A stretch of 64,000 nt of DNA from Onishia taeanensis (GTDB lineage Bacteria > Pseudomonadota > Gammaproteobacteria > Pseudomonadales > Halomonadaceae). Position numbers and translations under genes: made by a program. How positions within the stretch are numbered: position 1 is the first letter of the stretch; each line of letters begins with the position of its first letter. The DNA is taken from contig NZ_QLSX01000001.1 in the NCBI RefSeq assembly GCF_003268885.1, positions 310,001 to 374,000 on the forward strand. Reading direction: 5' to 3'. Below the pieces are notes generated by a model. That model saw only the letters and a program-made list of their open reading frames with translations. It made no database searches and was not told the origin of the DNA. Below, piece after piece: positions 1 through 2,321 of the stretch.

Positions 1-1335
1 TTCGGCCTGAACATCCTTGATGATCGCTTCGAACTTCTCCTCGCCGGTGAGATAGACCAGATCGTTAAGATCGCGACGAATCAGCGGGCGGTTGGTGGGA
101 ATCACCATCACATCCAGGCTGTAGATCTGGCGGAACTCGAAGGCCTCGGTATCGGCGGTCCCGGTCATGCCGGAAAGCTTCTCGTAGAGGCGGAAGTAGT
201 TCTGGAACGTGGTCGAGGCCAGCGTCTGGCTCTCGCGCTGAACGGTGACGCCTTCCTTAGCCTCGACCGCCTGGTGCAGCCCCTCGGACCAGCGACGGCC
301 AGGCATGCTGCGCCCAGTGTGCTCATCGACGATCACCACCTGGCCGTCGTCGATGATGTAGTCGACGTCGCGCTGGTAGAGATGCCGCGCACGCAGCGCC
401 GAATGCATGTGCTGAAGCAGGTTGAGGTTCTGGGCGGCGTAGAGGGATTCATCCTCACCGAGCAGCTCTTCGCCGCGCAGCAGCGCTTCCACCTTGTGGT
501 GGCCTTCCTCGGTAATATCGACCTGCTTCTGCTTCTCATCGAGCACGAAGTCGCCATCCGGCGGCACATCATCGTCTTCGCTCTGCTCGCCTCGCACCAG
601 GTCAGTCGACAGGCGGTTGATCACCTTGTAGAGCTCGGTGTTTTCTTCCACCGGGCCGGAGATGATCAGCGGCGTGCGCGCCTCATCGATAAGGATGGAG
701 TCGACCTCATCGACGATGGCGTAGTGAAGCCCGCGCTGAACCTTGTCCTCGAGGGAGAAGGCCATGTTATCGCGCAGGTAGTCGAAGCCGTACTCGTTGT
801 TGGTGCCGTAGGTAATATCGCAGGCATAGGACTGGCGCTTTTCATCGGAATTCTGGCCGGAATAGATCGACCCCACCGTCAAATCCAGGCGTTCGTAGAG
901 CGGACGCATCCACTCGGCGTCACGGCGCGCCAGATAGTCGTTGACCGTGACCACGTGCACGCCCTTGGCGGGCAGCGCATTCAGGTACACGGCAAGGGTG
1001 GCCACCAGCGTCTTGCCCTCGCCGGTCTTCATCTCGGCAATACGCCCGGTGTTCAGCGCCAGGCCGCCGATCATCTGCACATCGAAATGGCGCATGCCCA
1101 TGACGCGTTTGCTGGCCTCACGCACCACGGCGAAGGCCTCGGGCAGCAGCGCGTCGAGTGACTCTCCCGCCGCCAGACGCTCGCGAAACTCACTGGTCTT
1201 GGCCCGGAGGCTGGCATCGTCGAGGGCCTCGAACTCCGCCTCCATGGCATTGATCTTGGCAACGACCTTGCCAAAGCGTTTGACCTCGCGGTCGTTCTTG
1301 GAGCCGACCACTTTGCGCAATAAATTATTAATCAT
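1..1335 (-). CDS. secA: SecA preprotein translocase ATPase, N-terminal 445 residues (runs off the window)
   Basis: SecA is the motor ATPase that pushes unfolded preproteins through SecYEG. The first 445 codons are present; the 3' part lies beyond base 1. The start ATG at 1335 gives a protein opening [12 protein letters not shown], typical of SecA. Visible motifs are the Walker A stretch [11 protein letters not shown] near residue 102, the Walker B/DEAD-like [11 protein letters not shown] about 100 residues later, and the start of the preprotein cross-linking domain. Its Shine-Dalgarno is weak (GAGAACGGA about 10 bases upstream). A small secreted-type ORF ends 91 bases upstream on the same strand, which recalls the secM-secA arrangement of enterics. 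Confidence 0.98.
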
Positions 1336-1406
1336 GAAACGTCCGTTCTCTACCAAGCATCCGAATACGGGCCCGAGCACCTTGGCCAGGCACTGGCGCC
1401 CACTAT

Positions 1407-1421
1407 CCGCCCAGCGGGCGG
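1407..1421 (-). promoter_or_regulatory. GC-rich stem-loop between the small ORF and secA
   Basis: On the minus strand CCGCCC-GCT-GGGCGG forms a perfect 6-bp stem with a 3-base loop, starting just after the stop codon of the upstream ORF. A second small hairpin (GCCAG-TGC-CTGGC) follows about 15 bases closer to secA. In E. coli the secM-secA leader folds to control access to the secA ribosome binding site. By eye I could not find a strong helix that sequesters the secA Shine-Dalgarno here, so a regulatory role is inference. Confidence 0.35.
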
Positions 1422-1426
1422 GCATA

Positions 1427-1771
1427 TCAGACGGTTTGGCAAGGGGGGCCGCGACGGGTCAGCACATCATGGGCGGCGGCGGGAACCCGCACCACCTTGC
1501 GTGGCAGCGGGCGATTCGGCAACTGAAGGCGCCAGCGACGAAGCGGCCGCCAGCGGCGTTGGCTCGCCTGACGGCGGCTTTCAGCGCGGATGACCGCCGG
1601 CGCTAGCCAACAGATATGCACCACCCGCTCGATCAGGCGCACGCCGTCAGCCTGTACCAGGCCCGCCGGCAACAGGCAGCCCACCAGCAAGCCTGCCAGC
1701 CACCAGCGCGTGCGACGGCGCGAGGCCGTATCGGCAGGCCGACTTGGGCTAGCGTTAGTAGAGCCGTTCAT
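1427..1771 (-). CDS. Small secreted-type ORF upstream of secA; candidate SecM-like translation-arrest regulator
   Basis: A 114-codon ORF with no homologue that I recognise. Residues 18-22 are basic (RRRTR), 23-39 form a hydrophobic core ([16 protein letters not shown]), and V-Q-A at 39-41 is a plausible signal peptidase I site. The mature part is short and very arginine-rich. The protein ends [11 protein letters not shown]. coli SecM, also encoded directly upstream of secA, ends in R-A-G-P followed by four residues, and RAPP-type arrest peptides stall on R-A-P-P. About three quarters of third codon positions are G or C (hand count), consistent with coding. The canonical aromatic residues of the SecM arrest motif are not visible, and there is no clear Shine-Dalgarno before the ATG. 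A secreted protein of unknown function is the main alternative. Confidence 0.6.
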
Positions 1772-1835: not shown

Positions 1836-2321
1836 ATGAGTATAAAGGTTAAGCGTTTCCGCGCCCAGCCCGTCACGTCGCTGCTCGGCGGCCGCGGTGA
1901 GCTCGGCGGCCTGATGCGCATGGCCGGCCTGATCGACCGGGCCCAGCAGGAACTGCGCGAGCATCTTCCCGAGGAAGTCCGCGAGCACGTGTTCGTGGGC
2001 GGTTACCGGGACGGTAAGCTGACCCTGATCACCGATCGCGCGGTCTGGCTCACCTGGCTGCGCTACGAACAACCCCGGCTGTTGGACCTGCTGAGACGTC
2101 GGCCAGAATTCGAAGCCGTGCTGGGATTTACGCTCAAGGTCCGCCCGGTCCGCCCTCCCAAGGCCCCGCCGCGTCATAGCCGGCGGCTGTCGACCAGCGC
2201 CGCCGGAGAGATCGCCAGCTGCGCCGAAGATACCGAAGACCCACGGCTAAAGCGCGCCCTCGAGCGCCTGGCTTCCCACGCTGACGACCAGGACAAAGGC
2301 GCGGACAAGGACAAGGACTAG
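1836..2321 (+). CDS. dciA: DciA (DUF721) replicative helicase loader
   Basis: DciA recruits and loads the replicative helicase DnaB in bacteria that lack DnaC or DnaI. The 161-residue protein fits the family: a basic N-terminus, a folded domain with the characteristic V-x-x-x-x-D-G-x-L-x-x-x-x-x-x-x-x-W-x-x-x-L pattern (here YRDGKLTLITDRAVWLTWL), and a disordered charged C-terminal tail rich in D and K. I chose the ATG at 1836, giving MSIKVKRFRAQP, over a TTG seven codons upstream. The secA-dciA-lpxC neighbourhood is conserved in Pseudomonas. Assignment rests on the domain pattern and this context. Confidence 0.85.
   Translation: MSIKVKRFRAQPVTSLLGGRGELGGLMRMAGLIDRAQQELREHLPEEVREHVFVGGYRDGKLTLITDRAVWLTWLRYEQPRLLDLLRRRPEFEAVLGFTLKVRPVRPPKAPPRHSRRLSTSAAGEIASCAEDTEDPRLKRALERLASHADDQDKGADKDKD

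Follow-up and report, generated by a model that had tools for sequence, protein, structure and literature searches.

A candidate secretion-monitoring arrest peptide with an R-G-P-P core encoded upstream of secA in Halomonadaceae

Introduction

What is the function of the small open reading frame (ORF) that lies directly upstream of secA in Onishia taeanensis? The question is raised by a stretch of 64,000 nucleotides (contig NZ_QLSX01000001.1, positions 310,001 to 374,000 of the forward strand), here called the window. An earlier note on this DNA had proposed that the ORF encodes a secretion monitor like SecM, that is, a secreted chain that arrests its own ribosome and thereby raises the translation of secA when export is slow. 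The conservation of the ORF supports the arrest peptide, whereas the kinship to SecM is not borne out: the ORF falls into the R-A-P-P/RQH class and has no PF06558 match. From comparative sequence data and by analogy with characterized members of this class, we put the probability that the product is a secretion-monitoring arrest peptide regulating secA at about 0.87.

The ORF and its locus

The earlier note had placed a 114-codon ORF on the same strand as secA and 91 bases upstream of it, with which the translation and a Pfam SecA_DEAD match agree: both genes are on the minus strand, and the gap of 91 nt ends at the secA start at 1335 (Table 1). On the far side of the ORF follow dciA on the opposite strand, lpxC, and ftsZ. 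The proposed layout of the signal (a basic region, a hydrophobic stretch, and VQA) can be read from the translation, as can the ending, in which four residues (CQTV) come after the last proline of the core. The product had been described as having an Arg-rich body, and its composition is indeed basic (22 R+K versus 5 D+E). Six-frame translation of the 64-kb window yields 338 ORFs of at least 60 aa, three of which contain R[AG]PP anywhere. Within the last 24 residues it occurs in the 1427..1771 ORF alone, and because this is the single case among 338, the RGPP ending is not taken as chance.

Table 1. Features of the secA upstream region in the window (residue numbers refer to the 114-residue product).
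Feature	Coordinates	Strand	Evidence
Candidate arrest-peptide ORF, 114 aa, ATG start	1427..1771	-	Translation, homolog search, dN/dS
N-terminal layout: basic region RRRTR (residues 18-22), hydrophobic 23-39, VQA 39-41		-	Translation
Signal sequence, residues 20-41	1649..1714	-	Conservation, hydropathy, dN/dS versus two control signals
Conserved middle block, residues 53-67	1571..1615	-	dN/dS 0.054, column entropies
Drifting Arg-rich spacer, residues 68-98	1478..1570	-	dN/dS 0.382
Extended arrest motif, residues 99-106 (AAHDVLTR)	1454..1477	-	dN/dS 0.154, conserved D102 and L104
Predicted arrest core R107-G108-P109-P110	1442..1453	-	dN/dS 0.005, RGPP/RAPP in 95/95
Predicted P site (P109 codon) and A site (P110 codon)	1445-1447 (P); 1442-1444 (A)	-	Class toeprints (PMC10987492)
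Tail CQTV and stop codon, unconserved	1427..1441	-	Column entropies
Leader between ORF and secA	1336..1426	-	RNA folding, promoter/terminator scan
secA, presumed regulated gene, runs off the window	1..1335	-	Pfam SecA_DEAD, 1.9e-131
dciA, divergent neighbor, conserved locus marker	1836..2321	+	PF05258, 5e-11

Distribution in the family, order, and class

A protein search finds homologs of the ORF product in all seven genomes of the genus. All 12 named records (Onishia, Halomonas, Modicisalibacter, and Kushneria) end in RRGPP plus a tail, and the closest of them are those of O. taeanensis at 96 and 95% identity. A profile built from 11 sequences (A2) matches 258 of the 275 family genomes and 21 of 24 genera. 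One match (G146) is marginal (E 0.005), is the sole match in its genus, and lies on another contig than secA; with G146 set aside, good matches amount to 257 genomes in 20 genera. Adjacency to secA was inspected in 98 family genomes, namely the 30 best-scoring ones, 28 of 29 chosen to include weak matches (the 29th, a piece without secA, was left out), and 40 chosen from the list. The examined genomes and the 12 named records were collapsed to a non-redundant set of 95 sequences, from which nine loci without secA (L008-L014, L085, and L086) and the frameshifted L073 were dropped, while L078 and L105 were kept. The divergent dciA gene accompanies the ORF in 95/95 of the non-redundant loci beside secA.

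Among the 17 family genomes without a profile match and G146, 16 have a secA match and two have none. An R[GASD]PP upstream ORF (uORF) is absent upstream of secA in all 16 of these secA-bearing genomes, where the upstream gene encodes a protein of ~310-350 aa. Three of these 16 proteins were scanned and are M23 peptidases; the rest match the C terminus of this protein by eye. As in the uORF-less loci (L087-L102), an M23 peptidase-like gene stands at this position in many of the genomes sampled from elsewhere in the order.

The order in question is Pseudomonadales, in which we take Halomonadaceae to be placed by GTDB. Outside the family, 241 of its genomes have a secA match, and 78 of these were sampled with a bias toward families with more similar SecA; one of the 78 regions extended only ~150 nt upstream. 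None of these 78 secA upstream regions has an ORF with R[AG]PP close to its end. In one region, an ORF contains QSGP at 42 residues from its end; this was taken as chance. Most have an M23-like or LpxC-like C terminus upstream (one of each confirmed), and several are without a long ORF. For the class, a profile of 44 rows (A3) was used, for which a script chose 45 loci by dissimilarity, L078 was removed by hand, and L105 was not picked. It matches 11 of 369 genomes. The three strong matches all come from this family, and the eight marginal ones (E 2e-4 to 7e-3) were rejected as ending before the core in loci without secA. Neither the order sample nor the class sample holds a good case outside the family, and the arrest-peptide gene therefore appears to be an innovation shared by most of one family. 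The gene upstream of secA in the uORF-less genomes suggests that the arrest peptide replaced an M23 peptidase-like gene in one clade.

Conservation of core, motif, and tail

The core R[GA]PP is present beside secA in 97 of the 98 family genomes examined. A frameshift, or loss of the ending, is seen in one relative, L073 (G222), in which the core lies in another frame and whose poor assembly is 86% complete and 6% contaminated. The locus scripts demanded both R[GASD]PP and CL[LFW]P; the latter lost no locus, and among loci with a profile match beside secA, L073 alone failed the former. In the 95-sequence set the core reads RGPP 89 times and RAPP six times, with R107, P109, and P110 invariant in 95/95. 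The sole core substitution found is accordingly G to A, and it occurs in two genera: five RAPP sequences belong to one genus, and the sixth comes from one genome of another genus that has RGPP in its other sampled members. Judged from this distribution among genera without a tree, the swap probably happened twice.

Selection along the ORF was estimated by the Nei-Gojobori method with 42 independent pairs and six segments. From the N terminus on, dN/dS is 0.034 in the signal (residues 22-38), 0.152 in residues 39-52, 0.054 in residues 53-67, 0.382 in the spacer, 0.154 in the motif, and 0.005 in the core, where one nonsynonymous change stands against 75 synonymous ones. The codons of the core vary freely among synonyms, and selection therefore acts on the peptide. 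Such a segment-wise pattern is what would be predicted for an arrest peptide, unlike a folded periplasmic protein. It also agrees with the family alignment foreseen in the earlier note, as the signal and the C-terminal RGPP are conserved, the middle drifts, and dN/dS is very low at the end.

Conservation falls off on both sides of the core. Within the extended motif, D102 is found in 84, V103 in 74, L104 in 75, and R106 in 71 of the 95 sequences. Two motif readings had been offered for this region: R107-G108-P109-P110 is conserved and stands, whereas R106-x-G108-P109 falls, with residue 106 being P, Q, or C in 24/95. A natural test of this flanking residue is provided by L057-L072 and related loci (genus g23), many of which carry Pro or Gln before the core (TPRGPP, TQRGPP). 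The first six positions past the core have entropies of 3.3-3.8 bits, and the tail is 2-44 residues long in 94/95 sequences. The remaining one, L105 (G030), has no stop codon in the arrest-peptide frame, which continues in frame into secA; here, readthrough of a stall would yield a signal-bearing SecA fusion. L104 (G031), from the same genus, has a stop codon after RGPP plus seven residues. In L078 (G225), the 44-residue tail after RGPP ends in a stop codon that overlaps the secA start, which makes it a possible translational-coupling variant.

Relation to known arrest peptides and alternative explanations

The RQH family was defined by Fujiwara et al. 2024 (PMC10987492) in a search of 30,175 genomes. 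It comprises short uORFs of unknown function directly upstream of secA, secDF, or yidC on the same strand, with an N-terminal secretion signal or TM segment, a C-terminal RAPP-like core common to more than two species of an order, and a signal-to-core spacing of over 30 residues. The ORF has the required position and strand, a signal as judged by its basic-hydrophobic-VQA layout and hydropathy, a core shared as RGPP or RAPP across the 95 sequences, and 68 residues from A41 to P109. In sequence, it thus fits the R-A-P-P/RQH class and not SecM. For one published group, uA_RQH_Pseudomonadales, a representative with R109GPP is described in PMC10987492 as arresting E. coli and B. subtilis ribosomes with a fraction arrested above 0.9. 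As described there, the group is alike in being a small uORF before secA with an N-terminal localisation signal, a C-terminal R-G-P-P conserved within the order, and a spacer of more than 30 residues, and an Arg at position 109 is possible for five start codons among the 95 sequences. The published group is probably this ORF family, because such a uORF was not found in any of the other families sampled from the order. A signal-level conservation and a middle block, both present here, are not mentioned for it in the available text of PMC10987492. The main text of this paper and that of its 2021 forerunner (PMC7897499) contain no word beginning with "Halomona", and no study of this gene was found among the titles listed for Halomonas/Halomonadaceae, SecM, secA, and arrest peptides.

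According to PMC12992588, RGPP and RAPP are the cores that support arrest in most contexts, with RGPP giving the most robust arrest among the cores compared; averaged over 10 major bacterial groups, RGPP also ranks as the rarest tetrapeptide. ApdA and ApdP, which are set beside the ORF by description, share an R-[A/G]-P-P core, and the same stall chemistry would be expected for them. They differ in gene context, being located before secDF in Actinobacteriota and Alphaproteobacteria (PMC10987492). MifM and other YidC monitors, also compared by description, resemble the ORF in a narrow signal-to-core distance, but the ORF lies upstream of secA and not of yidC.

A strongly diverged true SecM, sharing descent with E. 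coli SecM and the same lpxC-secA neighborhood, is the foremost alternative. The ORF does occupy the same genomic slot (ftsZ-lpxC-...-secA) and, like SecM, lies directly before secA and combines a signal sequence with a C-terminal Arg-Pro core, a predicted stall before Pro, and four residues after the core. PMC10987492 moreover describes a class of short SecM proteins whose spacer has a median length of 71 residues. The ORF differs in having RGPP and not RAGP and 114 instead of 170 residues. Its end does not follow the SecM arrest sequence F-x4-W-I-x4-G-I-R-A-G-P as given in PMC10987492, and the F, W, and I of the E. coli motif are absent, as had been noted before. In the other sampled families of the order, secA is usually preceded by an M23 peptidase gene or by lpxC. 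None of 44 diverse members of the ORF family is matched by PF06558, which also finds nothing in the window's own genome and matches 0/274 sampled genomes of the class, a sample without a close Enterobacteriaceae genome (an E. coli LpxC probe finds 3/252 genomes above threshold, the best at 63% identity). The family profile does align with residues 48-96 of SecM via the middle block, but the hmmsearch score of 2.4 bits is not meaningful, and hhalign gives a probability of 0.03 over two columns; both comparisons use one SecM sequence, that of E. coli. With Pfam and NCBIfam scans, hhalign, and hmmsearch all giving nothing usable, homology to SecM was rejected, and descent from it is considered unlikely. 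A lone DUF3099 match of the ORF (0.047) was taken as chance.

Less probable still, and in our estimate improbable, is that the ORF is a plain translated leader, either coupled to secA or encoding a small exported periplasmic protein, with an RGPP that is not an arrest site. The conserved signal and middle block could be required by a working exported protein, and the ORF that runs in frame into secA in one genome (L105) would suit a leader. A folded product, however, is hard to reconcile with a drifting spacer, four frozen residues near the end, and an unconserved tail, and RGPP is reported in PMC12992588 to be strongly avoided in bacterial proteomes. A spurious ORF in GC-rich sequence, as might be suspected from the long open frames that overlap it in other frames and on the opposite strand, is already refuted by a frame kept in 97/98 family genomes examined and a dN/dS that stays well under 1 in each of the six segments.

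Signal sequence and middle block

In the arrest-peptide family, the signal is conserved nearly as strictly as the core, with L29, C32, L33, and P35 invariant in all 95 non-redundant sequences. For comparison, MlaC (PF05494) and LptA (PF03968), two ordinary exported proteins encoded in the window, were analyzed in the same 15 genome pairs. Their signals have a dN/dS of 0.382 (MlaC) and 0.419 (LptA) and their mature parts of 0.075 and 0.067, with 222 and 247 of 255 codons of the signals alignable. The uORF shows the reverse of both of these few controls, with 0.007 in the signal and 0.224 in the spacer. As the value of 0.007 reflects one nonsynonymous versus 48 synonymous changes, the size of the contrast is imprecise; in the broader set of 42 pairs, dN/dS of the uORF signal (0.034) is still about a tenth of that of the control signals.

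The lipobox has the consensus L-[ASTVI]-[GAS]-C with Cys at +1. L[VILF][GST]C is found in 95/95 sequences, 11 of which have L or F at -2 or T at -1, and is followed by LLP and a VQA-like site. The context of Cys32 is thus lipobox-like, but with L-L-P and a VQA-like peptidase I site after it, a lipobox was rejected as an established fact and regarded as unproven. The distance from Cys32 to Arg107 is 75-82 residues in the 95 sequences (sd 2.0), and length differences of this stretch stop growing with divergence. Most secA- and secDF-type uORFs are stated in PMC10987492 to vary widely in length.

The signal may conceivably be a second, sequence-specific sensor element beside the arrest core, because W-W-L-A-G-L-L-V-[G/S]-C-L-L-P is near-frozen like the core and lies at a bounded distance from it, unlike both controls; we hold this idea tentatively and consider it rather doubtful. 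If true, the peptide would report how one kind of signal is handled, such as a signal of the lipoprotein or SRP/YidC type that inserts at a set chain length, and SecA supply would be tied to that branch and not to bulk Sec flow. Between the signal and the drifting spacer lies the middle block, I-C-x3-P-x2-I-R-A-x-S-R-R. Located 42-56 residues before the predicted P-site residue, it would be positioned approximately at the tunnel exit of a stalled ribosome. Novel here are the strong constraint on the signal, the middle block, and the swap between RGPP and RAPP; the contrast in signal conservation was not found in a non-exhaustive search of the available literature on the class.

Proposed mechanism and the secA leader

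By analogy with the class, the ribosome would stall with P109 in the P site and P110 in the A site. According to PMC10987492, toeprints placed the third core residue in the P site for every RQH member examined in this way. In the chemistry described in PMC10951233, peptide-bond formation is blocked by a hydrogen bond that the A-site Pro makes with the carbonyl of the penultimate residue of the P-site peptide; applied to the ORF, A-site P110 would be kept from reacting by such a bond with G108-P109. At this point the signal would be outside the ribosome and able to engage the export machinery, because ~68 residues separate its end at A41 from P109. Export would subsequently pull on the nascent chain and end the stall. 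When export is slow, the stalled ribosome would remain on the core codons and keep local mRNA structure off the secA start, so that more SecA would be made.

For the last of these steps, RNA was folded over a stretch that begins 60 nt upstream of the P codon and extends 35 nt into secA, once free and once with a ribosome covering up to +16. The mean unpaired probability at the secA start in the 95 rows is 0.425 without and 0.499 with a stalled ribosome. The difference of 0.074 compares with 0.021 in shuffles (Wilcoxon 1.7e-4, with related rows counted as independent). In only 34/95 rows does it exceed 0.1, and some rows (L005, L046, and L057) have slightly negative values. In the window's sequence, the secA start goes from 0.333 to 0.500 unpaired, and this difference of 0.167 is reached by 0/40 shuffles. 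In a scan of the ribosome block, most of the opening takes place while the block is shifted from -30 to 0 relative to the P codon (48/95 rows). In these models, a stalled ribosome would open the secA start modestly, with support confined to a minority of loci, and folding is modestly compatible with stall-dependent secA induction. That stalling induces secA is thus something we infer, with modest support from RNA folding.

The leader between the ORF and secA is no more stable than its shuffles (z 0.25, 115/200 fold as well). A conserved hairpin was rejected on this ground and on the lack of an Rfam match in 1200-1900; the distance from core to secA, which ranges from 54 to 228 nt across sequences, also argues against one conserved hairpin. 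No terminator-like site is found in 1300-1900, and the single promoter-like match in this range runs into the secA start.

Further points against a monitor are the frameshift in L073, the frame of L105 that continues into secA, and the 16 family genomes that have secA without the uORF.

Significance

A guess made from a single genome has become a deeply sampled natural experiment, in which a putative arrest peptide is kept through most of a family. The residues that matter are marked by selection: the core, the extended motif, the middle block, and the signal. Given the frozen signal and drifting body, the reverse of two exported controls, the idea that a monitor of secretion reads one specific signal can be put to the test. 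Halomonads serve as production hosts, and the control of secA bears on export yield in them.
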